Of a DNA stretch of 64,000 bases, positions 30,630-47,532 are shown one piece after another (positions within the stretch are counted from its first letter, which is position 1; every line of letters begins with the position of its first letter). Under the pieces are notes generated by a model. That model did not search any database. It had not been told where the DNA came from and saw only the letters and a list, made by a program, of their open reading frames with translations. The stretch is taken from the NCBI RefSeq assembly GCF_015354405.1, contig NZ_JADKYP010000003.1:124001-188000 (forward strand), given 5' to 3'. This DNA is from Nocardia sp. BSTN01. Lineage in GTDB: Bacteria; Actinomycetota; Actinomycetes; Mycobacteriales; Mycobacteriaceae. A program made the position numbers and the translations under genes.

Positions 30630-31190
30630 TCATCGCGCACCGCGCGGACGCCGGCGCGGGCGAGCGTTGCCGACGTGCTGCTCGACCAGTTCGCCCCACC
30701 AGTCGGCCAGTGAGCCGACCAGAAACCATGCGGCCCTGACTCGTTCGTCCCCGACCGTCTCGGCGTCGCGCAGCAGGACGGTGGCGCGGACCTGAGCGGC
30801 GGCGAGTCCGTCGACGGCCGCACCGAGGGAACGCGGATGGGCCGCGGCGGCGGTGCGGTCGCTGACCCAGCGGTCGATCTGGACGACGATTTCCCTTCTG
30901 CGACAGTCGATCTCCGCCGCGCGAACCGGCGAGCGACGGCGGACGAGGTGAAGTTCGGCCAGTTGGCGGGTGGCCCGGGTGACCGGGTGGTCGTCGGCCT
31001 GGTCGCCGAGATGGCCACAGCAGGCGGCGAGAAGTTCATGGGCGCCGGGAATCTCGGGATGGAATTCGGCGGCCGTGCCCGGGGCGCCCGTCCCCACGGC
31101 GCCCCGGTCCACCGCGGCGGCGCACCGGCCGCGCAGCCCGCCCGGGCCGGTCCGCGCGGCGCGGCCGTACGGCTGCGAGGCGGCGGACAT
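30630..31190 (-). CDS. DUF4254 family protein
   Basis: A 186-residue helical protein. The family pattern is RQLAELHLVRRRSPVRAAEI, RREIVVQIDRWVSDRT, LGAAVDGLAAAQVRATVLLR and AWFLVGSLADWWGELVEQHV, with a basic C-terminal tail (RPRRRPRGAR). Function unknown; such proteins are common in Nocardia and Mycobacterium. GGAGG is 6 nt before ATG. It lies 235 bp downstream of the seven-gene biosynthetic operon on the same strand; whether they share a transcript is unclear. Confidence 0.7.
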   Translation of the reverse strand: MSAASQPYGRAARTGPGGLRGRCAAAVDRGAVGTGAPGTAAEFHPEIPGAHELLAACCGHLGDQADDHPVTRATRQLAELHLVRRRSPVRAAEIDCRRREIVVQIDRWVSDRTAAAAHPRSLGAAVDGLAAAQVRATVLLRDAETVGDERVRAAWFLVGSLADWWGELVEQHVGNARPRRRPRGAR

Positions 31191-31425
31191 CGGATACCTC
31201 CGGAAGGGTCGTGGTTGCACCCGACGCCACGAACGAGACACCGGACCGCGAGCCCGACGCGGCAAGGGCAAACCGCGCCGGATCCGGTGTGCCGCACGAT
31301 GCGAAGGGGGCAATCCTGCGGCGCCGGGTGCTACTTCCCAGCGTGCGCGCTCGCGGCGGCCCGGTCACTGCCCTTTCAGTGGCCTTCCGATGCCCCTGGG
31401 CCTGAGCCCCTGCCCGCCGTGGGAA

Positions 31426-32421
31426 CTATCGCCAGGTCACGGCGGTGACGATGAGAATCAGATACAACACCAGTACGAATACCACAGCCGGGACAACGGG
31501 ATACGCGCGGGTGGCCGAATCCGCCCCGCCCGCAGCGAGCGACGCCGAGCCGTATCGCGCGGGCTCGGACGACGGAACCGGTGGCCGCATCGGTTCCGGG
31601 ACGCGAGTCAGGAACGATCCGGCCGCGAGGACCGGAAGTAGTAACAATCCCACTGGTGTCCACGCCGGCAACGCCCACGGCAGCGGACGCTCCCACGGCC
31701 GGCTCAGCGCCACGTCCGCACCGACCGCGAGGGCCGCGCATCCCACAATCGCGACGACACTCCCCCGCCGCCCCAGGACATTCGAGTAGTACCACTGCCC
31801 GGGGCGCGGGTCCGCCGCCGTCTTGCGCGCGAATTCGAAATGGAGGAAGGCGCCCGCGAAGATCAGCGCGACCCAGGCTGTCCGCCATCCGGATTCGACC
31901 TGCCCGGTGTCGATCGCCGAACGCACGAGGTACGCGATGATCCACAGCTGCACCGGGTAGGTCACGGCCAGATTCAGCAGCAGAGAGCCGCGAATCCGCG
32001 CCGATACGCTCTCCAGCCCCCACAGCGCGAGGCCGTACCCCATCGCCGCGACGACGAGAACCGCCGACCACCACGACAGCAGCGACGACACCACGGTCAG
32101 CAGCACCGCGAGCGACCCGATCGCACCCCACAATTCGCCGACGCTCACGGCTCCCGTGACCAGCGGCCGGTCCGGGTTGTGCACCCGGTCGTAGTCGAGG
32201 TCCTTGATCTCGTCCACCATGCGCAGAAACAGCAGCAGCACCGCGACGACGACGATCCGCACCGCGGTAGCCCATCCCGGGCGCCACGCGGAATCCGGAT
32301 GCGACACCACCGCCGCGGTGCCCTCCACCGCGGCGACGAACATGACCGCGTAGAGCAGATGATGCGTTTCGTACCGCGCGGCGGTGAAGCGCGCGATCCG
32401 CGGGACGGAACCGCTCAGCAT
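31426..32421 (-). CDS. UbiA-family prenyltransferase
   Basis: A 331-residue membrane protein with about 8-9 hydrophobic helices. The first Asp-rich motif is VDEIKDLDYDRVHNPDRP, which in UbiA enzymes binds the Mg2+-prenyl diphosphate; the second is weak (ARKTAADPRPGQ). UbiA enzymes transfer a polyprenyl or geranylgeranyl group to an aromatic or lipid acceptor. An inserted Pro/Ser-rich loop (~residues 275-310) precedes the last helix. The ATG overlaps the AfsA-like stop by 7 bp. Last gene of the overlapping operon, so it probably acts on that pathway's product. Acceptor unknown. Confidence 0.88.
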   Translation of the reverse strand: MLSGSVPRIARFTAARYETHHLLYAVMFVAAVEGTAAVVSHPDSAWRPGWATAVRIVVVAVLLLFLRMVDEIKDLDYDRVHNPDRPLVTGAVSVGELWGAIGSLAVLLTVVSSLLSWWSAVLVVAAMGYGLALWGLESVSARIRGSLLLNLAVTYPVQLWIIAYLVRSAIDTGQVESGWRTAWVALIFAGAFLHFEFARKTAADPRPGQWYYSNVLGRRGSVVAIVGCAALAVGADVALSRPWERPLPWALPAWTPVGLLLLPVLAAGSFLTRVPEPMRPPVPSSEPARYGSASLAAGGADSATRAYPVVPAVVFVLVLYLILIVTAVTWR

Positions 32422-33374
32422 TCCGCCTCGTCGGTGTCGTAGCGCAGGCCGATACGGGCGGCCACCGCACCGCACTGGTTGATTTCGCAATCGACCTGTC
32501 CCGGAACGTCATCCGAGGCACGGGCCACACATTCGGCGCGGTGGTCCAGCTCCACGAACCGCTCGAAGGAACTGGAAACCCCGATCAGCCGGCCCGGTTC
32601 GGACACCGCCATCGCGGTGACCGTCTGACGTGCCGCCTCGAGCAGCACACTGCCGGGGACGTGATCCACGGCGTGGTCGAACAGGATCGGATGTCCGGTG
32701 TCGATCGCCAGCTCGGCGACCGCGGCCGCGCCGACCCGCCGCATCGGGCCGATCACCACATTGCGCCCGTTGGCCCGGCCCACATCGACCGCCGCGGCCG
32801 ACTGCCCGGGCGGCAGCGCCGCGCCGATGTCGCCGAGGCCCAGCCCGGTACGCAACCCGCCGCGCAGCGCCTCCCACCGCGACGGCGACACCCAGGTGAA
32901 GGATCCGTCCACGATCATCAGCGGCTCACCGCCGCATTCGATGTCGAGCACCATATCCACCCCCTGCAGGACCTCGCCGCGCCGATGTCGGCGGGAAATC
33001 TGCACCGACATCACCAGATCCGCGGGCGCGGGCCCGATCACCCAGCTGTCGCTCTCCGCGACGGCACCGTTGAAGGTGCGCACCACGAATCCGAAATCCT
33101 CTGGCACACCGAAGTATTCGTGCGTGAGAGCGATCGCCGCCTGCCGGGCGGCCTCCATCACCAGCATGGGATCGTAGGTGCCGTCCCACGGCGCCAGGTG
33201 GTCGCCGTAGAAGGCGTGCATGCGGGGTAGCTGGGCGCCGACCACGAATTCGTCGGACCGCGCGGCGTGCAGCGAGGTGACGAAGACCTCGGAAACCGCA
33301 CAGCGGTGGGCGAGATGCCGGGAGATGGTGTGCACATGGCTCGCGGTCGGGATGGTCGCGGTGTCGATCGTCAT
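32415..33374 (-). CDS. AfsA-family hotdog protein (gamma-butyrolactone synthase-like)
   Basis: A 319-residue protein with two hotdog repeats. Family hallmarks are HRCAVSEVFVTSLHAARSDE followed by FVVGAQLPRMHAFYGDH (first repeat), and HPILFDHAVDHVPGSVLLEA (second repeat). AfsA of Streptomyces joins a beta-ketoacyl-ACP to dihydroxyacetone phosphate, starting A-factor synthesis. Here the presence of a dedicated ACP and acyl-AMP ligase in the same operon would supply the acyl-ACP. No ArpA-type receptor gene is nearby. Overlaps its neighbours by 4 bp upstream and 7 bp downstream. A role in signal synthesis is inferred. Confidence 0.88.
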   Translation of the reverse strand: MTIDTATIPTASHVHTISRHLAHRCAVSEVFVTSLHAARSDEFVVGAQLPRMHAFYGDHLAPWDGTYDPMLVMEAARQAAIALTHEYFGVPEDFGFVVRTFNGAVAESDSWVIGPAPADLVMSVQISRRHRRGEVLQGVDMVLDIECGGEPLMIVDGSFTWVSPSRWEALRGGLRTGLGLGDIGAALPPGQSAAAVDVGRANGRNVVIGPMRRVGAAAVAELAIDTGHPILFDHAVDHVPGSVLLEAARQTVTAMAVSEPGRLIGVSSSFERFVELDHRAECVARASDDVPGQVDCEINQCGAVAARIGLRYDTDEAEC

Positions 33375-34273
33375 GGTCGTGCCTCCAACCAGTCGTGTGC
33401 GGATACCGGGGGCAGGATCTGGCGCCGCCCGCCGTTGCGCATGGGCAGTACGTGGGAACCGAGGACGATGGCTGACCAGGGATCGATCGCGCGGCCGGTA
33501 GCCCAGGCGCGGCGCAACAGCAGCGCACAGTCCTCGTCGCGATCCGGATCGAAGTCCGCCGGAACATCACCGACGTCGGCGCGCAGACGCGCGACGGCGG
33601 CCGACCGACCGAAATCCCGTGCGGGAGTGCGGGAGTACAGCTCCGCGGCGCAGGCGGCGGCTTCGACACCGCGGTCCCTCCCGGACTCGATCTCCCGCAG
33701 CACCCGCGCACGGGTGTCGGTGTCGAAGTAGATCGCGAACTCGCGCAGCACGTCGGCAGGATCGTCGGGCGAATGCACCAGATTCAGCAGGTAGCTGTAT
33801 CTGCCCAGCAGATAGCGCAATTCACCGGGTTGCCGCTTGCCCGGATCGGTGGGGCCCTTGGCCGCCGTGAGCCGCACCGAGGTCGGCAGCGCGGCGGCTT
33901 CGCCGGAGACGACCAGGATCAGCGCATCGGAGATCTCGGTCAGCAGATCGGCGAGCCGCCGTCGCTCCGGCGAAGCGATATTCCACGCGAAGTACCACAA
34001 CGCGCGCACCAGATGCCGGTCCACCGCGCAGATGCGCGCCGCGACGACACGAAAATCGTTGTCCCGCAACCACCGCAGGGTCGGTTCGACGGCCCGCGCC
34101 ACGACCGCGTCCGGTTTCAGCAGCAGCAGCGAGTATCGGCGGGAGAAATCGGCCGCATCGAGTCCGGCCGCACCGAGTTCGTCGACCGTCTCCTGAACGT
34201 AGGTGTCTTCGGCATAGGCGGCCGCCTTGTCCGGCAGCGGGGTCGACGCCGCCAGCAGTTGCGCCAGATTCAT
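33371..34273 (-). CDS. Nucleoside-diphosphate-kinase-like protein
   Basis: A 300-residue protein with an NDK-type core. LLLLKPDAVVARAVEPTLRW matches the KPDA strand/helix; LRDNDFRVVAARICAVDRH follows. GELRYLLGRYSYLLNLVHSP keeps the active-site His (His167), as in the NVIHGSD loop of true NDK, but G-S-D becomes S-P-D-D. The second half (~residues 180-300) has no NDK counterpart. It is very different from the housekeeping Ndk at 52.6 kb. GGGAGGC is 6 nt before ATG. It may move a phosphate on a nucleotide or pathway intermediate, or be only structurally related. Confidence 0.75.
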   Translation of the reverse strand: MNLAQLLAASTPLPDKAAAYAEDTYVQETVDELGAAGLDAADFSRRYSLLLLKPDAVVARAVEPTLRWLRDNDFRVVAARICAVDRHLVRALWYFAWNIASPERRRLADLLTEISDALILVVSGEAAALPTSVRLTAAKGPTDPGKRQPGELRYLLGRYSYLLNLVHSPDDPADVLREFAIYFDTDTRARVLREIESGRDRGVEAAACAAELYSRTPARDFGRSAAVARLRADVGDVPADFDPDRDEDCALLLRRAWATGRAIDPWSAIVLGSHVLPMRNGGRRQILPPVSAHDWLEARP

Positions 34274-35364
34274 CGGCTGCCTCCCACTGTCGCGTCCGGG
34301 CCGAAGCGCGCCAGTACTTCCGACACCGACGGCAGCGGATCGCCGAGGTAACCGCTCTCCAGGCAGTGGTCCAGGAGCAGTCGCAGATACGGCTTGCCGC
34401 TCGGCGGGCAATCCCGTCCGAGCAGGGCGTGTGTCGCGGTGGTGTCGAACAGCGGTCGGCGGGCGAAGTAACTCGTGTACAGCGCGCCGATGCGCTGGAA
34501 GTATTCGCGCTCCAGCGGTTCCAGATCCTCCACCGCGAACGAAGCCTCGGGCACGAAGGTCGCGACCCGGAAGGACGGATATTCGGCGAGGACGTCCGAG
34601 ATGTCGCGCAGCGAGAGCGCATCGGCGCCGACGGCGTGAAACGTCTGTCCCGCGGCCGATTCGAAGTCGGTCGCGGCCGCGGTGATCACGTCGGCGACGA
34701 AATCGACCGGTGCGGGCGCGATCGTGGCGTCGTAGCGACCGGGCAGTGAGCGCAGCTTGCCCTCGACGATCAGCTTCACCACGGTGTAGAGGTTCTTGTA
34801 ATCGCGGATCACGCCGGTGCCGGTGGCGCCCGTGACGACGCCGGGACGAACGACCGCCCAGCGCAGCCCCGGCGTGCAGCGCACCTGGCGTTCGGCCCGG
34901 AACTTACTGTCCTCGTAGCCGTTTCCGAAGGCCTGTCCGACATCGAGTTCCGCCTCGGCGACCACCCCCGCCCGCATCCCGCACACGTAGGCGGTACTCA
35001 CGTACACCAGCGGCACGTCCCAGCGCAGCGCCAGTTCGATCGCGTGCGCGGTGCCGCGCACGTTCAGTTCCTCGTAGTCGCCGGCGGTGGCGTCGAAGGC
35101 CGTGGTCGCGGCGGAGTGCACGATCATGCCGACGCGGGAACCGAGTTCGGCGGCGTCGTGCCGGGAGAGGCCGAAACCCAGCCGCCGGATGTCGCCGCGC
35201 ACCGTCTCGATGCCGTCGATCTCGGCACCGTCGTTGCGGACGATCCGCGCAGTGCTGTGCACCAGCCCGACAACGGGCCGGCCCGCCACGCCGAGGCGCG
35301 CCACCACCTCCGCACCGACCAGGCCGCCCGCGCCGGTCACCAGGACGGTGTCGTATCCGGTCAC
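34270..35364 (-). CDS. Thioester-reductase-like SDR (NAD-binding domain 4 family)
   Basis: A 364-residue extended SDR. VLVTGAGGLVGAEVVARLG binds the cofactor; HSAATTAFDATAGDYEELNV and LVYVSTAYVCG are typical of the male-sterility/thioester-reductase group; catalytic YxxxK is in GYEDSKFRAER. Such domains release acyl chains from carrier proteins by NADPH reduction to aldehyde or alcohol. Being next to an ACP and acyl-AMP ligase supports reductive release or beta-keto reduction. GTG start with GGAGG 7 nt upstream, overlapping the ACP stop by 4 bp. Confidence 0.85.
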   Translation of the reverse strand: MTGYDTVLVTGAGGLVGAEVVARLGVAGRPVVGLVHSTARIVRNDGAEIDGIETVRGDIRRLGFGLSRHDAAELGSRVGMIVHSAATTAFDATAGDYEELNVRGTAHAIELALRWDVPLVYVSTAYVCGMRAGVVAEAELDVGQAFGNGYEDSKFRAERQVRCTPGLRWAVVRPGVVTGATGTGVIRDYKNLYTVVKLIVEGKLRSLPGRYDATIAPAPVDFVADVITAAATDFESAAGQTFHAVGADALSLRDISDVLAEYPSFRVATFVPEASFAVEDLEPLEREYFQRIGALYTSYFARRPLFDTTATHALLGRDCPPSGKPYLRLLLDHCLESGYLGDPLPSVSEVLARFGPDATVGGSR

Positions 35365-35612
35365 AATCGCACCTCCTCGATCAGGGTCACCACATCCCCG
35401 ATGCGGCGCACACCGGCCAGCTGTTCGGGCCGGTAGCGCGGTAGTCCGAAGGCCTGTTCGAGGACCAGGGTCAGCTCCATCAAACGAAGTGAGTCGAAGC
35501 CGAGATCCTCGATCAGCCGCAGCTGGTCGCCCGCTTCGGCAGGCGGGGCCGGCGCCATCGCGACCACGAGCCGGCGCACCCGTTCCGCCACTGGGCCGTC
35601 CACATTCGTCAT
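35361..35612 (-). CDS. Acyl carrier protein
   Basis: An 83-residue carrier protein. The phosphopantetheine site is LIEDLGFDSLRLMELTLVLE with Ser in the DSL motif (about residue 41). The length is right for a free ACP. Its ATG overlaps the acyl-AMP ligase stop (TGATG), so the two are made together. It most likely receives the acyl chain activated by that ligase and presents it to the SDR and the AfsA-like enzyme. Not an AcpM-type housekeeping ACP by context. Confidence 0.9.
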   Translation of the reverse strand: MTNVDGPVAERVRRLVVAMAPAPPAEAGDQLRLIEDLGFDSLRLMELTLVLEQAFGLPRYRPEQLAGVRRIGDVVTLIEEVRL

Positions 35613-38600
35613 CACTGTCCTCCGTCGCGCTGGTGGGGTTGCCGCCCGCCCGAGCCGAGCAGGTCGCGGGCCTCGTCGAGCGGCAGTTCGGTATCGAGAT
35701 AGGCGGCCGGGCGCAGCCAGTCGTAGCTGATGTCGAGCGTGCGCCGCCATTGCTCCCGCGAATCGAACGACGCCGGAAACTGTGTGCCCCCGGCGATCTC
35801 ACGCACCGCGGCCGCGAGTTCGTCCAGCACGGCCAGTTCGTCCAGGCCGCTCGCGCCCGACCCGAGGACCTCGGAGAAGCGCAGGGCCGACGCGCGGTCG
35901 ACCAGCTCGCGGAGCGGTCCGGTATCCGGCACCATCGCGGACAGCGTCCGGCCGGGCGCGACATCCGGGGGCAGCGGGCGAATACCGTAGGTGGCCAGCG
36001 CCATTCGCACGCACATCGCGATTGCCCGATGCGCCGCGATGTCGGCGACGGCACCCTGCCCCGCTTTCACCGCGCCCATCAGATCCTCGCGGGCGTTCTC
36101 CAGCACCACATTCGACCAGACCACCTCCATCGCGCAGGCGACGAATCGCTGGGCCGGCAGTGGTGACAGGGTCGCGATATCGCGGTCCGCGCCGCCACCG
36201 GCGAGTCCGAGCGCGGGCATCCGCGTGGACGGAATCGGCGTGACCGGGCGTACCGGCTTGCACATGGCGAGCGCGGGACGCAGTGTCTCGCCGCCGCGCA
36301 GGGACAGTCCGATGAAGCCCAGACGGACGAATTCGGCGAGTTCGGTGCCGATCGGCGACCGGCGCAGTATGTCGGCGACCGACTTCCGGGCGACCACACC
36401 GCGCCAGGCCGCGGCGCCGCGGTCGGAGAGTGCGAAGACGTCCCGATCGTCGCGGAGCACGTGGATCCGGTCGCCGATGGGCCACGTGGTCACGCCGTCG
36501 ACCCGGGTCAGCAGAATCCGCTCGGGATCATCGGTGACGTCATCGATGCCGAATCGCCGGGCCAGGGTGAGCGTCTCGCCGAGCGTCGCGACGGCCGGGA
36601 GTGCCCGGTAGGCGTCGACCTGCTCCGCGACTCCGGGATCGGCCGCCACGATCCGATCGAGCTGTCGCGGAACCCATTTCGTCTCGATATAGGTCTCCCC
36701 GCGCGTCGCGGCCCACGATTTGACCGCTTGGAGCAGGCCGTCGCGCGCCCACCCGTCGGCTTCCGCGTCGGCGCCCATCGCGCGCAGGGCGACCGCGAAC
36801 CACAGCGCGTGGCGGCTGCGCTGCGCCCACCAGCCGGACACGGTCTCGGCGAAGCCGTCGGCGGGCAGCAGCGCCAGCAACCCGTCCAGATCCACGGCCG
36901 CGCTCGACCGCAGCACCGTCGCATTCCGGAACCGCTGGCACCGGTTCAGCACGTCCTCGTCGAGATCGCCGGCACCGGTCACGCGCTCGAGTTGCGCGCG
37001 CAGTTGCGCCTCGGACCGGGTGCGGATCTCGATGCGGCGGCCGTCGGCGAACACTACGGTCGGCAGCGTCGGCATCTGTTCGTCGCCGGGCGCCACGATC
37101 AGGAAGTCGATATCGGAACCCTCGTTGCCGAATCCCTCCGCCAGCGACCCCTCGAACAGGGCGGCGGAATTCGGTGGGATCGAGACCGTGTCCAGTGCCG
37201 CGGCCAGCAGCCGCTCGGCACGATCGAGCGACAGCGCCGGCGCGGTGGAGACATTCGTCGCGGTGGTGTCGGCGCCGGGATGTTCGGTGGCGCCGGCCAA
37301 TCGGCCCTCGGTGTAGAGCTGCCACATGTGGCGGCGGCGCGGTTTGCCGCTGGAGGTGCGGCGGATGAAGCCGCGCGGTCCGGTGACGACGCCGACGGTG
37401 CCCGCGGGGCCCAGTTCGCCGCGCACCACGGTCCGGGCCCGGGTGATCCACTCCCCGGGCGCGGTTTCGGCGAAGAGCACGATGCCGGGTGCGGCGCCGC
37501 CGGTCAGCGAGACCGCCGCGAGCTTTCCCTTGGTGATCCCGGTTTCGCGCGCCACCCGGGATTCGATGTCCTCCATGAACACCGACCGCCCCCGCACCTT
37601 CAGGCTCGTACCCATCCGGCCCAGTACGAAAACCTCGTCGTGGTAACGGAATCCGGCGTCACCGGTGTAGAGCCGGCCGTCGGTGATGCGGGTCGCGCCG
37701 CCGGCACCGTCGGTATATCCGAGTGCTACCGAATCGCCGATCACCACCATTTCGCCGAGCACCCCGTCGGGCAGTTCGCGGCCGTGCTCGTCCACCACCA
37801 CGACGGTGGATTCGGGAGTGGAGTACCCGAGGCCGGTGATCCAGCCCGGGCCGCTCACCCATCGGTCGTCGGCGAGTGCGACCTCCGCGACGATCCGCAC
37901 CGGCTCACCGGGGCGCAGGGTCGCGGTATCGACCCGCAGGGCCGTGAGCGGCCGGTCGCGTGCCGAGGAGGTGACCATCAGCGTGGCCTCGGCCAGACCG
38001 TAGGCGAGGGTGTAGGCGCGAGCGGAGAAGCCGCGCGCGCCGGTGAGATCGGCGAAGGACCGCAGATCCTCGACTTCGACCGGTTCGGAGCCGACCGCCA
38101 GGGTCCGCCATCCCGACAGGTCCAGATCCGCAATGTCGGCCGGCGAAACGCGGTGTGCGACATAGCCGAGCGCGAACGACGGCGACGGCGAGTGCTGGGC
38201 GTGCACCATCGCCCGCAGCCAGCGCGCGGGATCGCGCACGAACTGATCGGGACGCATCAGATACAGGTCCCCCTGATTGGCGACGGTGGTGAGGAATGCG
38301 CCGACGAGGCCCATATCGTGGTAGAGCGGCAGCCACGAGACCATCGCCTCGCCGTGTCGCCAGTCGATCAGCCGGCTGATCATCCGGATGTTGTTGGCCA
38401 GGTTGTGCCACGACACCCGCACACCGCGCGGGGTTCCGGTCGACCCGGAGGTGAACTGCAGCAGTGCCGTTTCGGCCGCGGGTGCGAGCGTCCGGTCGGC
38501 GGGCGATCCGGTGTCGCCGACGACGACCGGTTCGTCGGCACGTCCGGCCGCCGTCATCGCCTCACGGACCAGTGTTTCGAGTTCCACGGAGGTCACGACC

Positions 38601-38965
38601 ACGCGTGGTGCGGCCTGGTCGAGGATCGCCGCGACGTGCGCGATGTACTGGGCCATATCGGCGAACATGGGCGGGGCGATGGGCGTGAACACTCCACCGC
38701 ACGCCCACACCGCGTAAAAGGCGGCGACACAGGGGAATCCGGTCGGCATGACGACGCAGACCCCGGCCTCGTCCCCGCCCCCGAGACCTCCTTCGCGGAG
38801 CCGGCCCGCCACCCACCAGGTCAGCTCGGCGAGTTCGGCGTAGCTGCGGAACTGCCAGCCGTCGGCTTCGTCGGCGAGGTGAATGCCGGTGGCGGTGGCG
38901 GGATTCACCAGCCAGCCGCGCACCAATGCCTGGTCGTCGTCGGTGTTCGGCAGTTCACTGGGCAT
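35612..38965 (-). CDS. Fatty acyl-AMP ligase fused to a nucleotidyltransferase
   Basis: A 1117-residue fusion. Residues 1-~565 are a fatty acyl-AMP ligase (FAAL): LLQFTSGSTGTPRGVRVSW, VSWLPLYHDMGLVGAFLTTV, LYTGDAGFRY. Residues ~595-700 are a Pol-beta-type nucleotidyltransferase: LFEGSLAEGFGNEGSDIDFL gives GS...SDxD, then a helical substrate domain (WWAQRSRHALWFAVALRAMG). Residues ~830-885 (VFALSDRGAAAWRGVVARKS...) resemble a PqqD-type small domain. The last ~220 residues are helical and unrecognised. FAALs load ACPs; what the transferase nucleotidylates is unknown. GGGGAGGC is 6 nt before ATG. Overlaps upstream gene by 11 bp. Confidence 0.88.
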   Translation of the reverse strand: MPSELPNTDDDQALVRGWLVNPATATGIHLADEADGWQFRSYAELAELTWWVAGRLREGGLGGGDEAGVCVVMPTGFPCVAAFYAVWACGGVFTPIAPPMFADMAQYIAHVAAILDQAAPRVVVTSVELETLVREAMTAAGRADEPVVVGDTGSPADRTLAPAAETALLQFTSGSTGTPRGVRVSWHNLANNIRMISRLIDWRHGEAMVSWLPLYHDMGLVGAFLTTVANQGDLYLMRPDQFVRDPARWLRAMVHAQHSPSPSFALGYVAHRVSPADIADLDLSGWRTLAVGSEPVEVEDLRSFADLTGARGFSARAYTLAYGLAEATLMVTSSARDRPLTALRVDTATLRPGEPVRIVAEVALADDRWVSGPGWITGLGYSTPESTVVVVDEHGRELPDGVLGEMVVIGDSVALGYTDGAGGATRITDGRLYTGDAGFRYHDEVFVLGRMGTSLKVRGRSVFMEDIESRVARETGITKGKLAAVSLTGGAAPGIVLFAETAPGEWITRARTVVRGELGPAGTVGVVTGPRGFIRRTSSGKPRRRHMWQLYTEGRLAGATEHPGADTTATNVSTAPALSLDRAERLLAAALDTVSIPPNSAALFEGSLAEGFGNEGSDIDFLIVAPGDEQMPTLPTVVFADGRRIEIRTRSEAQLRAQLERVTGAGDLDEDVLNRCQRFRNATVLRSSAAVDLDGLLALLPADGFAETVSGWWAQRSRHALWFAVALRAMGADAEADGWARDGLLQAVKSWAATRGETYIETKWVPRQLDRIVAADPGVAEQVDAYRALPAVATLGETLTLARRFGIDDVTDDPERILLTRVDGVTTWPIGDRIHVLRDDRDVFALSDRGAAAWRGVVARKSVADILRRSPIGTELAEFVRLGFIGLSLRGGETLRPALAMCKPVRPVTPIPSTRMPALGLAGGGADRDIATLSPLPAQRFVACAMEVVWSNVVLENAREDLMGAVKAGQGAVADIAAHRAIAMCVRMALATYGIRPLPPDVAPGRTLSAMVPDTGPLRELVDRASALRFSEVLGSGASGLDELAVLDELAAAVREIAGGTQFPASFDSREQWRRTLDISYDWLRPAAYLDTELPLDEARDLLGSGGRQPHQRDGGQ

Positions 38966-41636
38966 CGGTTGCCTCCCCTTCTTCGAGCACGGTGACGGTT
39001 CCGCCGCTGCCGTCGACCCGCAACGGCATCCCGGTCCGGACGGATCCGGTGACACCCGGAATCTGCACCACCGTCGGCACACCGAGTTCGCGCGCGACGA
39101 TGGCGACATGGGTGAGCGGGCTGCCCCGCTCGACGACGAGAGCCGTCGCCGAGGGCAGCACCGCCACCCATCCCGGATCGGTTCGATAGGTGACGAGCAC
39201 ACCGCCCGCCACGTCGCGCGGCTCGTCGACCACCACCGCCGGACCCGTGCCGATCCCCCCACCCGACGGCGTCCCGGTGAACACCGAACCCGCTGTCGCG
39301 GCCGGGGTGTCGGTGATCGGCACCCAGCCGGCCGCCGCCAGTTCGGCCGGGCCGAAACCGCCTCCGTGGGTGACGAACCGGGCCGGTGCGACCAGGCGCG
39401 CGTCGGCGGCGCGCTGCTGTTTGCGGGCGGCGACCACGGCCCGCAGACCGGCCGTATCGCCGCCCTCGTAGCAGCTGCGCAGTTGCGGCAGCGTCAGGTG
39501 GAACACATCCGAGAATTCGTCGATGATATTGCGCCGCACCAGGTCTCGTCCCATAATTCGAAGGGTTCGCTTGACCATGCCGAAGGCGCGGGTGCGGCAG
39601 AAGCGCAAACTCTCCCGATGCCCCGCGCAGCGAGACACCTTGCGCCGTAAGCGTTCGTAGATCGCGCGGCGCCACCCGCGCAGATGGGTATCCAGATACC
39701 GTTGCGCGTCGTCGGCGGCGCGGTCCTGATGTTCCGGCAGCGCGGCCAGCACCATGACGAACAGGCCCGACGGATCCTCCCGCAGATCCGGAGTCTCGAG
39801 CTTCAGTTCGTCGAGGCTGCGGTAGCCGTAGCGGTCGATGTACTCGTCGACACGCGCGCGGAAGTCGTCGTGACCCGCCGTGATCAGTGCGTCGTAGATG
39901 CCTTCCGGGGCAGTGCTTTCCAGCAGCTTGCGCAGATCGGCGTTCTCCCGCACGATCGCGGCGAGCGCCGACATGGCACGGGCCGGCTCGGCGGATTCGA
40001 CGTCGGCCCCGGGTCCGGCGACGGCGTAGAGGAACCACTCCGGCGCCTTCGGCAGGAATATCCGGGTGAGGACGTACAGCAGGCCGGTGAGGGTCAGCAG
40101 CATCGCGTCCAGAACCATCATCGGACCCCAGCGGTGCACCAGTTCCCGATCGAGTTCGCGATAGCGGGCGTAGGCCTGAGCCCCGGTGTCGGCGCTGTCG
40201 TCGTGAGATTCGAAATCGTCGTAGACGCGGTAGAACTCGTCGAGGAACCGCCGCATCATCGCGTCGATCCCGGCGATGCGGCGCAGATAGATCGCGGTGG
40301 TGCGGGCCCGGGACATCACCCGCCGCAGCGGATTGCCGAAGATGAACGGGCGCAACGTCTTCGCGATATCGTCCGGCAATGGTTCGGCCACGCCGAGCGC
40401 GGCCTCGAGCACACGGCGGTTGAGCGCATAGCCCGGCGCGATGCCGACCATGCGATACCAGTGCAGCAGGTTGTAGTAGACGCGGCCGTGAAAGTAGCCG
40501 AGCAGCACCGGAGTCCAGCTGTCGGTCTGCGCGACCTGTGGCTGCGGCACCCCCAGGGATTCGGCATATCCGCGATACACCCGGCCGTAGATATCGGCCG
40601 CGGTGGTGAAGGTGAGCGGTGAGGTGATGCCGCTGAAACTTTCGATGATGTTGGAGTTGTCCCAGATTCGCAGATCGCCGGCGGGCACCGCTTCACCGGC
40701 GCCGCGCAACGGGTCCCCCACCGCCGTGGTCACCGGTCGCGCCTGTAGCACCCAGAGCCGGCCCTCCGCGTCGAAGGCCCACTCGACGTCCTGTGGAGCG
40801 TTCGTCGCGGTCTCGATCCGGCGGCCGACCTCGATCAGCCGGGTCACCTGCTCCGGAGTGAGCGCCGGGCGGGCGCGCAGCGCGGAATCGACGTCCACCG
40901 CGATACAGCCCTGGTCACCGTCCGGACGGTAGCGAGTCGCCTTCTCGCCCAGGACCGTATCGATCGCCGTGCCCGAAAACTTGTCCACGACAAAGGTATC
41001 GGCGTCCACGGCCCCGGAGACCAGCCCTTCGCCCAGACCGTAGACCGCGCTGATCAGCATCCGGTCCGTGGCGCCGGTGCTCGGATCGCAGGTGAACAGC
41101 ACACCGCTGGTTTCCGCCGCGATCAGGCGTTGCACGACGACCGCCGGCATCTCCGGCAGCGCCAGTCCGTGCGCGAAACAGTAGTTGATCACCCGCGGCG
41201 ACAACGCCGACGCCCAGCATGCCGTCACCACCGACGCGATCGCCTCGGCCCCTGAGACGTTCAGGAACGAATCGAACTGCCCGGCAAACGAATACGTGGT
41301 GCCGTCCTCCACCGCCGCCGAGGACCGGACTGCCACCGGGGCACGGCCCAGGCGCCGCCACACGTCGTCCATCGCCGCGACGAGGTCATCCGGGGGCGTG
41401 GCGGTCATGATGCGCGCGCGTAACCGGGCACCGCGGACCAGCGCCTCGTCGAGATCGGTCGTGTGAACGAATTCCGCTGCCGCCGTGACGATCTCGGCAG
41501 GCATATGTTCGAACATCTCCGGCTCGACGACCAGCCAATCCGGCACCGGCAACGACGCATCGCGCAACCGACGCAGCCCGGCCGCTTTCCCGCCGGCATC
41601 CGCCGCTTCGGCCGGGCCCGCTTCGGATTCGTGCAC
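38955..41636 (-). CDS. PEP synthase / rifampin phosphotransferase-like protein
   Basis: An 893-residue protein. The N-terminal ATP-grasp domain (residues ~10-320) has GGKAAGLRRLRDASLPVPDW, VAVRSSAAVEDGTTYSFAGQ, VLFTCDPSTGATDRM and WVLQARPVT. A long helical linker (~340-780) follows (NSNIIESFSGITSPLTF). The C-terminal phosphohistidine domain has VVERGSPLTHVAIVARELG with His843. This is the Rph layout: the ATP beta-phosphate passes via the His to an acceptor. A small-molecule acceptor rather than pyruvate is likely as no PEP barrel is present. GTG 41636 has AGGAG 5 nt upstream; ATG 41651 is the alternative. First gene of the seven-gene operon. Confidence 0.87.
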   Translation of the reverse strand: MHESEAGPAEAADAGGKAAGLRRLRDASLPVPDWLVVEPEMFEHMPAEIVTAAAEFVHTTDLDEALVRGARLRARIMTATPPDDLVAAMDDVWRRLGRAPVAVRSSAAVEDGTTYSFAGQFDSFLNVSGAEAIASVVTACWASALSPRVINYCFAHGLALPEMPAVVVQRLIAAETSGVLFTCDPSTGATDRMLISAVYGLGEGLVSGAVDADTFVVDKFSGTAIDTVLGEKATRYRPDGDQGCIAVDVDSALRARPALTPEQVTRLIEVGRRIETATNAPQDVEWAFDAEGRLWVLQARPVTTAVGDPLRGAGEAVPAGDLRIWDNSNIIESFSGITSPLTFTTAADIYGRVYRGYAESLGVPQPQVAQTDSWTPVLLGYFHGRVYYNLLHWYRMVGIAPGYALNRRVLEAALGVAEPLPDDIAKTLRPFIFGNPLRRVMSRARTTAIYLRRIAGIDAMMRRFLDEFYRVYDDFESHDDSADTGAQAYARYRELDRELVHRWGPMMVLDAMLLTLTGLLYVLTRIFLPKAPEWFLYAVAGPGADVESAEPARAMSALAAIVRENADLRKLLESTAPEGIYDALITAGHDDFRARVDEYIDRYGYRSLDELKLETPDLREDPSGLFVMVLAALPEHQDRAADDAQRYLDTHLRGWRRAIYERLRRKVSRCAGHRESLRFCRTRAFGMVKRTLRIMGRDLVRRNIIDEFSDVFHLTLPQLRSCYEGGDTAGLRAVVAARKQQRAADARLVAPARFVTHGGGFGPAELAAAGWVPITDTPAATAGSVFTGTPSGGGIGTGPAVVVDEPRDVAGGVLVTYRTDPGWVAVLPSATALVVERGSPLTHVAIVARELGVPTVVQIPGVTGSVRTGMPLRVDGSGGTVTVLEEGEATDAQ

Positions 41637-41696
41637 CAGGTCTCCTGTCATCGCGGACCGTGCGCCTGCCCAGCGGTCGCTCGCAGAGTTCGTAAC

Positions 41697-41906: not shown

Positions 41907-42611
41907 GTGAGTTGGTCATTCACACCGGACGAGTTCGCGCACATCTGGCGCGAAACCGACCTCGATCGCCATCCCTTCCCCCTTCGCATCCTCGAAACCC
42001 CGCGCACCGAGGACGAGGCGGCGACCTTGCGCAAAACCCTCCAGGCACGGCTGCCGCTCGGCGCGGACCCCGACCTTTCCGCCTGTCTGCGCATCCTGGC
42101 CGCGCCGCACACCCGCGTGGTCGCGATCGGCGGCGCACACAGTCCGGGGACCGAGATCCGGGCGGTGGCCGCGGCGATCTACGACCACGCTGTGCTCGCG
42201 ATCCAGGAACCGGGACGCACACCCGGATTCGGCGGGCCCATCCGATTGTCGATCGGGCATACCGCCAAACTGGGCGCCCGCATCGCCGCGCTGCTGCCCG
42301 ACTGCCCGGCCGGAGGTGAACCCGCCCGCTCGGCGCCGACCGAGGCGGTACGCGACGACGACTGCCCGCGGCCGGCCTCACCGCCGGCGCCGCGCATCCG
42401 CCGCCTGCTGCTGAAACCGCATACCGCCGAAGGACATATCCGCATCGAGGCCGGCCTGGACCGGCCCACACCGCCCGCGCCGCTGTACTACACCTGGATC
42501 GACGTCGCCGAGGACGGGCGCTATCTCATCAAGGCGGGCGACGAAGTCCATATCGTGCCCGCGAGCCGGCAGCAGATCGGCACTCACCTGCAAAAACGCA
42601 TTCCGCGATGA
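41907..42611 (+). CDS. EspG-family ESX secretion-associated protein
   Basis: A 234-residue EspG-like protein. The N-terminus SWSFTPDEFAHIWRETDLDR with HPFPLRI is typical; central strands (TRVVAIGG, AVLAIQEPG) and the C-terminal YLIKAGDEVHIVPASRQQIG complete the fold. EspG proteins are cytosolic chaperones that bind PE-PPE pairs for type VII secretion. A Pro/Arg-rich loop (~residues 135-165) is longer than usual. A GTG start with GGAGGG upstream. The two genes downstream are a plausible client pair. Confidence 0.85.
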   Translation: MSWSFTPDEFAHIWRETDLDRHPFPLRILETPRTEDEAATLRKTLQARLPLGADPDLSACLRILAAPHTRVVAIGGAHSPGTEIRAVAAAIYDHAVLAIQEPGRTPGFGGPIRLSIGHTAKLGARIAALLPDCPAGGEPARSAPTEAVRDDDCPRPASPPAPRIRRLLLKPHTAEGHIRIEAGLDRPTPPAPLYYTWIDVAEDGRYLIKAGDEVHIVPASRQQIGTHLQKRIPR

Positions 42612-42699: not shown

Positions 42700-42803
42700 G
42701 CCGCCTCCGGGCGATCCCCGTCAGGCTGTGTGATTGCAGCCCGATGGGGAGCGCTTACGTGGTAACGCTCCGCTGCCGCCTCCGGGCTTTCCCCATTAGG
42801 CTG
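42700..42803. repeat. Imperfect 29-bp direct repeat upstream of the ESX substrate genes
   Basis: GCCGCCTCCGGGC...AGGCTG occurs at 42700-42728 and 42775-42803, identical at 25 of 29 positions, 75 bp apart. The second copy ends beside GGTCG-GAC-CGACC (42802-42814), just upstream of the ATG at 42832. Either a duplicated promoter element or a regulator site. Confidence 0.5.
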
Positions 42804-42831
42804 GTCGGACCGACCGATCTCAGGGGTGCGC

Positions 42832-43206
42832 ATGACGATCGAGACCAGCCAGGCCGATATCGCCCGTTTCTTGCAGGCCGCGCGCGGGGGAACCGTCACC
42901 TTCGATCCGGCGGCCGCGCGTGGGTGCGCCGAGATCTATCAGCAGCAGGCCGACCGGCTTCGGGAACTACAGCAGCGCCTCGATTCGGTGGCGCAGCTCA
43001 GCGGATTCGGGGGCTTCTTCTCCGCGCAGCAGTTGCAGGCCGGTTTCGGTCGCAAGGCGCGCGATGCGGCCGAACTGCTCGACCAGTACATCGCCGCCGC
43101 CTACCGCATGAAAGAGGCCTTTCTGATCAGCGCCGGGCTCTACGAGGAGGCCGATTCCGCGCATGCGGCCGCGCTGCGGGCGATCTCGTCCGGACTCTCA
43201 CGATGA
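42832..43206 (+). CDS. Small helical type VII secretion target with YxxxD signal
   Basis: A 124-residue, mainly alpha-helical protein of EspC/PE-like size. Two long helices surround a turn at AQLSGFGGFFSAQQL. Near the C-terminus SAGLYEEADSAHAAAL carries Tyr104-x3-Asp108, the general YxxxD/E type VII secretion signal. No signal peptide. Overlaps the PPE-like gene by 4 bp (ATGA), as expected for co-folded secreted pairs. AGGGG is 6 nt before ATG. Not a classical WXG100 protein (no WxG). Confidence 0.75.
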   Translation: MTIETSQADIARFLQAARGGTVTFDPAAARGCAEIYQQQADRLRELQQRLDSVAQLSGFGGFFSAQQLQAGFGRKARDAAELLDQYIAAAYRMKEAFLISAGLYEEADSAHAAALRAISSGLSR

Positions 43207-44510
43207 GCGCCGAATTCCGTTACGGGCCGGCCGCATCGCCCACCGACCCCCAATACGTCAGCGCCATGGAACATTTCGAGTCCATGACGCACGAACAGAT
43301 CCATACCGGGACCGAGAAGATCGAGGCCGGTGAGATTCTGCAGGCCTCCCTGATCTGGCTGGAGGCGGCCGCCACCCTGACCGGTTCCATGCCGGCCACC
43401 CGCTCACAGGCCGAGCGCATCATGGACCACGCCGGCTGGCAGGGCCCGGCCGCCGAGGCCGCCGCCGCGAGCGCGCACAGTTTCGCTGCCTCCGTCGATG
43501 AATTGGCCGCCGTCTTCGGTGAGGTCGGTGCGCGGCTCGGTGCGGTCGCCGGCGCCGCGGAAGCGGTCAAACTGGCGGTACCCCCGCCGGGCGATTCCGG
43601 GCCGGTGGATGCCATCGCCCGAGTGTTGGAGGCCGCGCACGTGATCGATGCGCGCATCGCCCAGGAGGTCATGCGTCAGGAGGCGATTCTGACGATGAAC
43701 ATGATCTACAAACCTGCCTACTCCGCGGCGGGCACCGCGGTTCCGGCGCTGCCCGAACCCGCGGCACAAGCCGACCCGGCCGGACCGCGGCCCAGCGCTC
43801 CCGCACACCCGAACGGCGACCGGCCGCAATCGCTCCAAAACCCCACGGCCCCACCGTCGTCCGAGTCGGAGCCCTCGATACCGGAGCAGGCCCCGAACTC
43901 GGCCACTGTGCCCGGCACACCCGCGTCGCCGCAGCCCGCACCCGCACCCGAGAGCCCGGCACCGGCGCCGCCGCAGACGCAACCCGCTCCCGCACCCGGC
44001 GATCCGGCACCGAGTTCGTCGGCCCCGGGACCCGCCGCGCCGACGCACGATCCGGACCCCGCGCCGACCCCGGCGCCGCCGACCCCTTCCGCTCCCGCCT
44101 CGCCGACCCCGACGCAGGCACCCGCGCCGTCCGGACCGGAAGGCTCGGTGCCGCCTGCTCCCCCGACGTCCGATCCGCATGCCGCGCCGCCCGTCACCCC
44201 CGCCCCCACCGCACCGGCTGCGCCACCATCCGACACCCCCGCACCGCACTCGCCCGACCCATCGGCATCCGCTCCACCGCCCCAACCCCTCACGCCCGCA
44301 CCACCTCCGGCCCCACAGCCACCCGACCCGTCGGCATCCGCTCCACCGCCTCAACCCCCTGCGCCCGCACCACCTCCGGCCTCGGTACCACCCGATCCGT
44401 CGGCGCCTCCGCTCACCGACCAGGAAGGCCAGCCGGGTATCACCGGTCCCATTCCCAACACCGATACGCCGGCGACGCCCGACCAGCCCGGGGTGTCCCC
44501 GCCGGGCTGA
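43203..44510 (+). CDS. PPE-like protein with long proline-rich tail
   Basis: A 435-residue protein. Residues 1-~175 are helical with the WxG-type turn DHAGWQGPAAEAAAASAHSF (Trp79), as in PPE/WXG-like partners. Residues ~180-435 are disordered, about half Pro/Ala, with three copies of a 23-residue repeat (PDPSASAPPPQP...) near the end. It is probably exported by an ESX system together with the preceding small protein. The tail may span the cell envelope or bind wall components (inference). No transmembrane segment. ATG overlaps the upstream stop. Confidence 0.75.
   Translation: MSAEFRYGPAASPTDPQYVSAMEHFESMTHEQIHTGTEKIEAGEILQASLIWLEAAATLTGSMPATRSQAERIMDHAGWQGPAAEAAAASAHSFAASVDELAAVFGEVGARLGAVAGAAEAVKLAVPPPGDSGPVDAIARVLEAAHVIDARIAQEVMRQEAILTMNMIYKPAYSAAGTAVPALPEPAAQADPAGPRPSAPAHPNGDRPQSLQNPTAPPSSESEPSIPEQAPNSATVPGTPASPQPAPAPESPAPAPPQTQPAPAPGDPAPSSSAPGPAAPTHDPDPAPTPAPPTPSAPASPTPTQAPAPSGPEGSVPPAPPTSDPHAAPPVTPAPTAPAAPPSDTPAPHSPDPSASAPPPQPLTPAPPPAPQPPDPSASAPPPQPPAPAPPPASVPPDPSAPPLTDQEGQPGITGPIPNTDTPATPDQPGVSPPG
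44253..44408 (+). repeat. Tandem 69-bp coding repeat in the PPE-like gene
   Basis: Two full units (44253-44321 and 44322-44390) and a partial third (44391-44408) encode PDPSASAPPPQP-type 23-residue repeats. High DNA similarity between the units points to recent duplication by slippage. Confidence 0.7.
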
Positions 44511-44846
44511 GCGGGAGTTGAGAGCGCGAGATATTTCGGCAGTCCGGCTGTGACCGGGCGGAACGCACCGACCGCCCAGTCCGGGTGGGACTGCTGATCA
44601 TCGCGGCACAGCGGTGGCAGTTCCCGGAGAGAACCTCTCCACACACGACGGCCTGGACCGCGACGATGGCGATGGCGAACCTCGGCGAACGCGGGCCCCG
44701 CTGCTGAGGCCGGTCACACGCGGTGACCGCCTGGGATTCGCGCCTCGGCGTGACGCATGATCCGCCCTCGACTCGTTCCCTCTCGCGAACGGCGTGTGAT
44801 TCGCGCCCCGGCAGTCCGCGCTCGCGCAACTGTGGTGCCGAGATCC
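44511..44846. other. Intergenic region of 336 bp
   Basis: This lies between two convergent genes. I see no coding frame with actinobacterial codon bias, no RNA gene and no strong terminator hairpin. It marks the border between the accessory ESX module and the conserved core block. Confidence 0.5.
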
Positions 44847-45986
44847 CTACACCTTCACCAGATCGTCGGCGTGAATGACGGGGCGTTGCATACCTTCCGG
44901 CAGTTCGGAGGTGGAATGGCCGGCCATGGCCTGCAGTTCGGTGCTGTCGTATTCCACGACGCCCCGAGCCACCGTGCGGCCGTCGGGCGCGAGCAGGTCG
45001 ACCACATCGCCGCCGTAGAAGCGGCCCCTGACGCCGGTGATCCCGGCGGCGAGGAGCGAGCGGCGCGAATGCGCGACGGCTCTGACGGCGCCGGCGTCGA
45101 GGTGGATGGCGCCGCGGCTGTCGGCGGCGTGGCGGACCCAGAACTTGCGGGCCGACAACCGGACCGGACGCGCGGCGAAGGCCGTGCCGACGGAGGCGTC
45201 GCGCAGTGCCGGCGCCGCATCGGAGGCGGCGGCCAACAGGACGGGCACGCCGGCGTCGGCGGCGAGACGAGCGGCCGAGAGCTTCGACGCCATACCGCCG
45301 GTGCCGAGAGCGCCGCCGCTACCGGCGATCACACCGTCGAGGTCGGCGCTGCTGCGCACCTCGGGAATGAAGGTGGCGGCGCCCTTGCGGGGGTCGCCGT
45401 CGTAGAGACCGTCCACATCCGACAGCAGGACCAGCGCGTCCGCACCGACCAGATGCGCCACCAGCGCGGCCAGCCGGTCGTTGTCGCCGAAGCGGATCTC
45501 CTCGGTGGCGATGGTGTCGTTCTCGTTGACCACCGCGACCGCGTGCAGGGCGCGCAATCGGTCGAGCGTGCGCTGCGCGTTGCGGTGGTGTTCGCGCCGG
45601 GCGAAGTCACCCGCGGTCAGCAGCACCTGGCCCACCACACGGTCGAACCGGGCGAACGAGGTGCCCCAGGCGTGGGCCAGCGCCAATTGGCCGACGCTCG
45701 CCGCGGCCTGTTTCGTCGCGAGATCCCTTGGGCGGGCGGCCAACCCGAGCGGGGCGATGCCGGCGCCGATCGCACCGGACGACACCACCACCACATCCGA
45801 GCCCGCGCGCATCCGGGCCTCGATCGCCTCGGCGAGCTTGTCCAGGCGCGCGGTGTCGAGTCCGCCCTCGAGGCTGGTCAGCGCCGACGAGCCGATCTTC
45901 ACCACCACGCTGCGCGCGGTCCGGATCGACTGCCGAGTAGTTACCGCTCCCTTGTCAGAATCCACCTGTGTCACAACAACACTCAC
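44847..45986 (-). CDS. proB: Glutamate 5-kinase
   Basis: A 379-residue enzyme, first step of proline synthesis (glutamate to glutamyl-5-phosphate). The amino-acid-kinase domain has [47 protein letters not shown] and [16 protein letters not shown], with [15 protein letters not shown]-terminal PUA domain (residues ~285-379, [20 protein letters not shown]) is present. The N-terminus is ~20 residues longer than in M. tuberculosis if GTG 45986 is the start. Lies 85 bp behind obg, as in mycobacteria. Confidence 0.95.
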
Positions 45987-46071
45987 TCACTTGTCACGCC
46001 ACCACCGTGGCGCACGACGACAACCGGACCGATACGCCCGCGCACACCGGAGATACCGGCGTGGCGGGCGA

Positions 46072-47532
46072 TCACGGTTGGTCCTCGTCCTCCGAGACCA
46101 GGCCGCGGCGTACCCGGGAGGCATGTTTGCGCTCGGCGGCGGAGATGCGGTCGGTCTGGTCCAGACGGGGGTCGGTCCCGCGCCCGGTCATCACCATATC
46201 GACGCCGGCCGAAATCTGCGGCTCCCATTCGAAGCTCACATCACCGATGGTGACCTCGGCGCCGGGCACCGCACCCTGGCGGACCAGTTCGTCCTCGACG
46301 CCGAGGCGTGCGAGCCGGTCGGCGAGGTAGCCGACGGCCTCGTCGTTGTCGAACTGCGTTTGGCGCACCCACCTTTCGGGGCGCTCACCGCGGACGATGA
46401 ATCCGCCCTCGACCTCCGGATCGGGCACGACGGTGAAGCCGGTCTCCCCGGCCACGACGGGCCGGATCACCGGGCGCTTCGGCGCCGCCTTCGGATGCGC
46501 CTCGCGATATTCGCGGACCATATCGGCCAGCGCGAACGTCAACTGGCGCAGACCTTCCCGGCTCACCGCGGAAATCGTGAACACCGGCCAGCCGCGTTCG
46601 GTGAACTCGGGTGTCACCATCTCGGCCAATTCGGCGGCGTCGGGGATATCGGCCTTGTTGAGGATGACCACGCGGGGCCGGTCGGCCAGATCGCCCAATC
46701 CGGCATCGGCCTGCAGGGCCGGGCGGTAGGCGGCCAGTTCGGCCTCGAGCGCGTCCACATCGGAGATCGGGTCGCGGCCGGGTTCCAGTGTCGCGCAATC
46801 GACTACGTGGGCCAGCACCGCGCACCGCTCGAGGTGCCGCAGGAAGTCCAGGCCCAGGCCGCGTCCATCGCTGGCGCCGGGGATCAGGCCCGGCACATCG
46901 GCGACGGTGAAGGTGGTGTCACCGCTGGAGACCACGCCGAGATTCGGCACCAGCGTGGTGAACGGGTAATCGGCGATCTTGGGCTTGGCCGCCGAGAGCA
47001 CCGAGACGAGTGAGGACTTGCCGGCCGACGGGAAGCCGACCAGGCCGACATCGGCCACGGACTTGAGTTCGAGAACGAGGTCGCGCTCCTCGCCGTCCTC
47101 ACCCAGCAGGGCGAAGCCCGGGGCCTTGCGGGCGCGCGACACCAGCGCCGCGTTGCCGAGACCGCCGCGGCCACCGCGGGCCGCCACGAACCGGGTCCCC
47201 GCGCCGACCAGATCGGCCACGACCTCACCGTCGTCATCGATGACGACCGTGCCGTCGGGCACCTTCAGCAGCAGTTCCCCGCCCTGTTTGCCGTCGCGGT
47301 TGCCGCCCTCGCCGGGTTTGCCGTTACCGGCCTTGGCGTGCGGGTGAAAGTGGAAGTCCAGCAGCGTGTGCACATTCGGGTCGACTTCGAGGATCACATC
47401 CCCGCCGTTGCCGCCGTTGCCACCGTCGGGTCCACCGAGCGGCTTGTACTTCTCCCGATGCACCGAGGCACAGCCGTGACCGCCCTTACCGGCGCGGACG
47501 TGCAGTACCACACGATCGATGAATTTGGACAT
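46072..47532 (-). CDS. obg: Obg-family GTPase
   Basis: A 486-residue essential GTPase involved in 50S assembly and stress response. The N-terminal glycine-rich Obg fold ([20 protein letters not shown]) is followed by the G domain: P-loop [31 protein letters not shown], and [12 protein letters not shown]-terminal OCT domain (residues ~350-430, [15 protein letters not shown]) and a charged tail are present. Position after rpmA/rplU is the classic conserved order. Confidence 0.97.

Follow-up and report, generated by a model that had tools for sequence, protein, structure and literature searches.

A conserved seven-gene operon of Nocardia as a probable variant of the salinipostin operon of Salinispora

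The window analyzed here is a stretch of 64,000 nucleotides from Nocardia sp. BSTN01 (contig NZ_JADKYP010000003.1, positions 124,001 to 188,000), whose genome measures 7.79 Mb; it contains seven overlapping genes on the minus strand, spanning positions 31426-41651, which are the subject of this study. Gene coordinates were taken from a listing of open reading frames (ORFs) and start codons, while families were assigned with Pfam and NCBIfam models, each with its own cut-off. The operon starts with a Rph/RedH-like dikinase (38955..41651, 898 amino acids, PF01326 and PF00391), followed by a fusion of a fatty acyl-AMP ligase (FAAL) with a nucleotidyltransferase (NT) that has a helical C-terminal part (35612..38965, 1117 amino acids, PF00501 and PF01909), by an acyl carrier protein (ACP; 35361..35612, 83 amino acids, PF00550, PP-binding), and by a thioester-reductase-like short-chain dehydrogenase/reductase (SDR; 34270..35364, 364 amino acids, PF07993, NAD_binding_4, 1.2e-34). 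The last three genes code for a phosphotransferase resembling nucleoside diphosphate kinase (NDK) with an extra C-terminal stretch (33371..34273, 300 amino acids, PF00334, 9.4e-12), an AfsA/ScbA-family butenolide synthase of the double hotdog type (32415..33374, 319 amino acids, PF03756 in two stretches) and a UbiA-superfamily-like membrane transferase (31426..32421, 331 amino acids). All seven reading frames are intact and the overlaps, from the dikinase to the UbiA-like gene, measure 11, 1 (or 4), 4, 4, 4 and 7 bp; a GTG at 35615 is also a possible start of the ACP gene. These values confirm a preliminary description of the locus, which had reported seven minus-strand genes overlapping by 1-11 bp. 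Six of the gene families that it named are supported by Pfam or NCBIfam, with the correction that the first gene is a Rph/RedH-like dikinase and not a phosphoenolpyruvate (PEP) synthase, while the UbiA name carries a caveat, since PF01040 scores 26.7 bits, below its cut-off of 34.2. Over the NT part, the closest loci are those of N. aobensis, N. mikamii, N. kruczakiae and N. cerradoensis, at 94-96%.

The operon is real and well conserved, beyond chance co-occurrence. A search of 301 genomes from the family with the NDK-like protein gave relatives with E below 1e-20 in 27 of them, distributed over six genus groups. For 26 of these matches (G000 was left out), the surrounding DNA, up to 20 kb in length, was compared together with 71 named loci matched through the NT part, and removal of 17 duplicates, recognized by one exact 400-base probe per locus and between the two sets only, gave 80 distinct loci. 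The whole set, in the order dikinase-FAAL-NT-ACP-SDR-NDK-AfsA-UbiA, was matched in 71 of them by tblastn, which does not test for intact frames, so that a copy with broken frames (L052) is counted. The named hosts are Nocardia, Antrihabitans, Gordonia polyisoprenivorans, Tsukamurella, Mycolicibacterium/Mycobacterium (counted as one) and Dietzia, to which two metagenome bins are added. Absence of conserved synteny, which the preliminary description had named as evidence that would speak against it, is not what these loci show, nor the 14 Streptomyces-type loci discussed below, all of which keep the core. Nine loci are incomplete: L057, L084 and L095 are short or cut, L045, L046 and L049 are remnants, and L058, L096 and L101 are rearranged. 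FAAL and NT are two overlapping genes in Antrihabitans stalactiti (L050:5782-9104, the same locus as L094). A nitroreductase-family gene is a frequent additional component (L035:7061-7672, L161:4353-5006 and L055:17225-17857); of the 71 complete loci, 35 have it between AfsA and UbiA and two more have it divergently beside the operon. Pairwise distances of the components correlate with each other (Spearman 0.67-0.91 in 25 selected loci, FAAL and ACP being compared in 18, with no species-tree control). The NT profile is rare, being matched in 6 of 396 genomes of a phylum sample and in 6 of 298 of an order sample.

Homologues of all seven window proteins were also found in one nine-gene run, at locus L164 of a genome (G1154) that consists of a single contig of 5,183,331 bp and that we take to be Salinispora tropica CNB-440. 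The order is dikinase, FAAL, NT, ACP, SDR, NDK-like, UbiA-like, luciferase-like (PF00296) and AfsA; identity to the window proteins is 48% for the dikinase, 39% for both FAAL and NT, 38% for ACP, 47% for SDR, 34% for the NDK-like protein, 44% for the UbiA-like protein and 30% for AfsA. Of the 151 genomes in this Salinispora-type genus group, seven give a full-strength match of 580-583 bits and an eighth a partial one of 73 bits, and the nine-gene order is identical in all four loci examined among the seven full-strength matches. The run is presumably the Salinispora spt operon. Kudo et al., in 2020, reportedly attributed the salinipostins and A-factor-like butyrolactones to the widely conserved spt operon of Salinispora, which has nine genes, and related clusters were reportedly noted by them in many actinomycete genera; Creamer et al., in 2021, reportedly identified spt9 as coding for the butyrolactone synthase. 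Chemically, salinipostins, cyclipostins and cyclophostin are enol phosphates of bicyclic structure that carry an ester chain, and an origin shared with A-factor has been suggested for them (PMC6681047). A further survey lists spt among nine experimentally characterized clusters and as one of the two most widely distributed; its table row gives 7, 112 and 13,368, read here as species, strains and bases (PMC8609351).

The window operon and spt both hold dikinase, FAAL, NT, ACP, SDR, NDK-like, UbiA-like and AfsA coding parts contiguously, on one strand and tightly packed. However, FAAL is fused to NT in the window, whereas these are two genes in the Salinispora type; AfsA follows the NDK-like gene and precedes UbiA in the window, while it comes last, after the luciferase-like gene, in the Salinispora type; and the window AfsA belongs to another lineage. 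The luciferase-like gene is found inside the operon in all four Salinispora-type loci, but is absent from the seven genes of the window; a search of 111 further loci (97 + 14, with duplicates counted) gave none inside the operon, with weak opposite-strand luciferase-like matches outside the operon in L077 and L079. From this likeness in gene content, the window operon is probably spt-like; as a variant of the salinipostin operon of Salinispora, it would make an alkylated phospho-butyrolactone, and its product is likely to be salinipostin-like. It is a variant and not a plain spt member, because the AfsA lineage differs and the luciferase-like gene is missing.

This comparison changes the view that the pathway is undescribed. 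The preliminary description knew of no characterized pathway with this gene set, a statement that is very probably wrong and was rejected here, since all seven homologues occur in the G1154 run and this run is presumably spt; the already characterized cluster with the same genes, which it had named as the other finding that would speak against it, thus largely exists if that identification holds. No description of the operon in Nocardia was recognized in the literature searched, mostly below full-text level. On the other hand, its proposal of a phosphorylated butyrolactone-type lipid appears to be right, an alkylated phospho-butyrolactone being the likeliest product by likeness to spt.

In the dikinase, Pfam identifies PPDK_N (PF01326, 1.3e-67), which is an ATP-grasp domain, and PEP-utilizers (PF00391, 4.1e-18), which is a phosphohistidine mobile domain; the NCBIfam model NF004881, named phosphoenolpyruvate synthase, scores 939 bits against a cut-off of 883. 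No PEP/pyruvate-binding TIM barrel was reported by Pfam, which gave only these two families, and its best solved chain in a comparison of its profile with solved structures is the 5fbs group; 5fbs is a rifampin phosphotransferase. Since its relatives are of the 5fbs group and no PEP-binding domain was found, the enzyme is of the Rph/RedH kind and a canonical PEP synthase was ruled out. Tambjamine and prodiginine clusters combine FAAL, ACP and thioester reductase with a PigC/RedH-type ligase; they resemble the window in that the dikinase is matched by the RedH and PigC models, among others, and in a similar activation and reduction logic. A tambjamine- or RedH-like pathway was considered; the two models score 329.5 bits against a cut-off of 1350 (RedH) and 269.9 against 1300 (PigC), and no pyrrole gene was recognized among the seven proteins.

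The nucleotidyltransferase domain passes NTP_transf_2 (PF01909) with 21.9 bits against a cut-off of 21. The structure predicted for the NT part (predicted local distance difference test score, pLDDT, 89.5) weakly matches ANT(4'') and kanamycin nucleotidyltransferase; its best structural matches are mostly aminoglycoside nucleotidyltransferases or proteins of the same fold, and their TM-scores are low (for the first match 0.28, relative to the query), so that only the N-terminal domain is explained. Invariant positions include Ser41 of the ACP (11 of 11 aligned rows, the window being included in these and in the following counts), Y150 and K154 of the SDR (13/13) and H167 of the NDK-like protein (21/21). 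The latter protein, with 300 amino acids against about 140 for a compact NDK, reaches at best 35 bits with an NCBIfam NDK model, whose cut-off is 155. Catalysis by these enzyme families involves the ACP serine, the SDR tyrosine and lysine, the NDK-like histidine and the glutamate and arginine of AfsA; the invariant residues of the four proteins are thus candidate catalytic residues. A second NDK match lies at 52569-52970 (-) of the window, about 18 kb from the NDK-like gene and with 28% identity in the matched stretch; it is probably a housekeeping gene.

AfsA passes the ScbA/BarX model (NF041195, 221.5 bits against a cut-off of 200), while its profile matched none of the solved structures up to E = 1. 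No other AfsA-family protein was found in its genome, where the two AfsA-family matches both lie inside one open frame of 383 amino acids. Passing the model and being the sole family member would suit an ordinary A-factor-type butyrolactone signal as the only product, its phosphate being removed and the other genes serving to make or tailor the acyl chain. However, dikinase, nucleotidyltransferase, NDK-like and UbiA-like proteins are unneeded for a simple butyrolactone signal, and no TetR-type receptor gene was recognized among five neighboring ORFs tested, the rest of the window not having been searched for one. Moreover, the simple butyrolactone clusters of Rhodococcus consist of gblA and gblR, in many cases together with gblE, and their flanks are not conserved (PMC5735094). 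An ordinary gbl cluster was rejected because of this different makeup and of the receptor not being recognized beside the operon; the AfsA-family synthase is common to the operon and to canonical gamma-butyrolactone clusters (afsA/scbA/gblA and receptor), but six further genes are present here. A signal of this kind as the only product is therefore considered unlikely.

As an alternative, the core genes might make a membrane ether or alkyl phospholipid, with AfsA being only a hotdog thioesterase or dehydratase. The three rearranged loci would agree with it: a FAAL/NT-ACP-SDR module without an AfsA match is found both in L101:4965-15675, where an acyl-CoA dehydrogenase gene and a flavin oxidoreductase gene are its neighbors, and in L096:975-18821, where a KS-ACP-TE protein and a UbiA-like gene adjoin, while NT, SDR and NDK without an AfsA match occur in L058:9143-18293, next to a class III aminotransferase. 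Yet AfsA was matched in 73 of the 80 loci (the 71 complete ones, L057 and L095), and both its E..RQ motifs (E74, R77, Q78 and E246, R249, Q250) are invariant in 14 of 14 aligned rows; in Dietzia-type loci, furthermore, it is fused to the NDK-like protein in one ORF of 618-649 amino acids (L055:7649-9529, L056:9151-11007 and L057:2912-4861), making this reading very improbable. The fusion itself suggests that the NDK-like and AfsA steps may be neighbors in the pathway.

The UbiA-like protein has invariant D70, K73, D74 and D78, as well as E196/R199/K200 (15 of 15 aligned rows), and the sole solved match of its profile below E = 0.01 is DGGGP synthase, 6m31 (9.9e-7). DGGGP synthase, digeranylgeranylglyceryl phosphate synthase, acts on a glycerol-phosphate lipid; because of this substrate, the match fits a UbiA-like enzyme whose acceptor is built from dihydroxyacetone phosphate. 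As this nearest solved relative prenylates such a lipid, the enzyme might instead move an isoprenoid onto the AfsA product, giving the prenylated lactone or lipid that the preliminary description had envisaged. This prenylation has not found support, the DGGGP synthase being the only solved match: Pfam reveals no isoprenoid-making gene among the seven, and none was noticed by eye among the neighbors in 16 loci, for which the first 60 residues were read and no search was made. An alkyl chain from FAAL, ACP and SDR would be a more economical donor for the UbiA-like enzyme, so that prenylation is less favored, and we hold it to be very unlikely. The phosphate of salinipostin-type products bears a lipophilic ester chain, for example C15 or C16 (PMC6681047).

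Under the preferred, spt-like assignment, a pathway can be outlined in which every enzyme has a task, the order of the phosphoryl and alkyl transfers being a hypothesis. FAALs make acyl-AMP and load the ACP, and thioester reductases release an aldehyde or alcohol; judging from their families, FAAL, ACP and SDR would convert a fatty acid, by way of acyl-AMP and acyl-ACP, to a fatty aldehyde or alcohol. The acyl-ACP logic (FAAL and ACP) proposed in the preliminary description is right, and Pfam confirmed the AMP-binding and PP-binding families. Enzymes of the AfsA family couple a fatty-acid derivative with a glycerol derivative (PMC5735094). Here, AfsA would condense a beta-ketoacyl thioester with dihydroxyacetone phosphate to a butenolide retaining the phosphate, whose ring may be reduced by a flavin reductase of the nitroreductase family, perhaps encoded elsewhere in the genome, where two relatives show 48 and 44% identity. 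The dikinase would phosphorylate the fatty alcohol, the NDK-like protein would convert the alkyl phosphate to the diphosphate, and the UbiA-like enzyme would attach the alkyl unit to the lactone phosphate; finally, NT may activate the phosphodiester, and the enol oxygen would then close the bicyclic phosphotriester.

Further loci come from the genus group of genome G477, which is taken as Streptomyces, in part because AfsA-family matches occur in 27 of 31 of its genomes. The NT profile matched 14 of 295 genomes of this group, and all 14 loci were fetched. Similarly to the window, dikinase, NT, SDR, NDK, AfsA and UbiA genes form one run in the same order in 14 of 14; however, NT is always a separate gene. 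A nitroreductase-family gene is present in 12 of the 14 loci, after UbiA in 11 and between AfsA and UbiA in one, and PF00881 was confirmed in the three of these genes that were tested. A FAAL-like gene lies at the edge of L160, outside the run. Cyclipostins and cyclophostin are known from Streptomyces (PMC6681047); among the Streptomyces-type loci compared here, no cluster was linked to either. Second AfsA genes with two TetR-family genes were observed a few kb from the operon in L156:620-3470 and L159:16234-19054, on a Pfam basis in the former and on a clustering basis in the latter; they are perhaps a separate butyrolactone signal system.

A tree of AfsA sequences was built from 79 rows, including 19 Mycobacteriales operon rows (three of them duplicates), 14 Streptomyces-type operon rows and 45 non-operon rows. 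The Mycobacteriales operon AfsAs form one branch (97/92) and so do those of the Streptomyces-type operons (100/98); the two branches join with weak support (83/49), a well-supported split separates them from 32 of the 45 non-operon AfsAs, and the Salinispora-type AfsA groups elsewhere, with non-operon rows. Because the AfsA tree and the gene order agree, we infer that the dikinase-NT-SDR-NDK-UbiA core remained linked, while the lactone synthase and its reductase were replaced or acquired independently. A bolder reading makes of the dikinase, NT, thioester reductase, NDK-like and UbiA-like core a portable phosphate-alkylating machine that would have joined with different AfsA lineages and flavoproteins on two or more occasions; the UbiA-like enzyme would alkylate the phosphate using a kinase-made alkyl diphosphate, and Nocardia, mycobacteria and Streptomyces would make phospho-lactones distinct from salinipostins. 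We regard it as possible but doubtful; to our knowledge, no such phosphate alkylation with a fatty alkyl donor has been described in the UbiA superfamily.

Several observations weigh against the spt-like assignment or parts of it. The identity of the G1154 run with the published spt operon is a presumption, and a primary alkyl diphosphate would be an unusual UbiA donor. The window operon has neither a nitroreductase gene nor a luciferase-like gene, and 34 of the 71 complete loci gave no nitroreductase match in the stretch examined. In the remnants L045, L046 and L049, which belong to the genus group of the window and lie beside EspG, only dikinase and NDK-like matches are left, the dikinase being shortened in the last two. 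FAAL and ACP lie outside the run or are absent in 13 of the 14 Streptomyces-type loci, being present in L150 only. Thirteen of the 45 non-operon AfsAs fall on the operon side of the main split, and a single clade of all operon AfsAs was rejected by the approximately unbiased (AU) test, both with the 79 rows minus three duplicates (p-AU 0.0022) and with four Salinispora-type rows (p-AU 0.0021; three duplicates and four long-branch rows left out, three Salinispora-type rows added), so that a different lactone part is possible. Presence in the operon had defined the tested group, although the first tree had already been seen when the test was run, and long branches remain. Finally, the spt product was undetected in the Salinispora extracts of one survey (PMC8609351).

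The surroundings of the operon are more variable. Its end faces a convergent O-methyltransferase gene (PF00891, 29518-30618, plus strand), while an ORF at 30630-31313 gave no Pfam match; similar genes, judged by eye, are found close to the operon in L035, L038, L067 and L086. On the other side, an EspG-family ORF (Pfam) occupies 41907-42611, followed by two ORFs (42744-44510 and 44757-46253) with no Pfam match; the EspG gene adjoins the operon in 12 of 26 loci, all in the genus group of the window. The neighbors, read by eye in the 16 loci mentioned above, mostly differ between genera; glycosyltransferase-like and cytochrome P450 genes recur in several, and five of these were confirmed by Pfam. 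A P450 adjoins the operon in the Dietzia-type L055:5324-6709 and in the Mycolicibacterium-type L053:13079-15690, the latter having also an EryCIII-like glycosyltransferase after UbiA; for both kinds of neighbor a tailoring role is possible.

In conclusion, the assignment would connect seven genes that are conserved as an operon in Nocardia, in several mycobacteria and in further genera with the phospho-lactones known as lipase inhibitors; mycolic-acid bacteria are accordingly predicted to have phospho-lactones of their own. The order of the steps can be tested on the NDK-AfsA fusion of the Dietzia-type loci and on those Streptomyces-type loci that lack FAAL and ACP in the run. As the lactone synthase and the flavin enzyme appear exchangeable while the phosphate and alkyl core is kept, the core enzymes would be the place to solve how the phosphotriester is formed.

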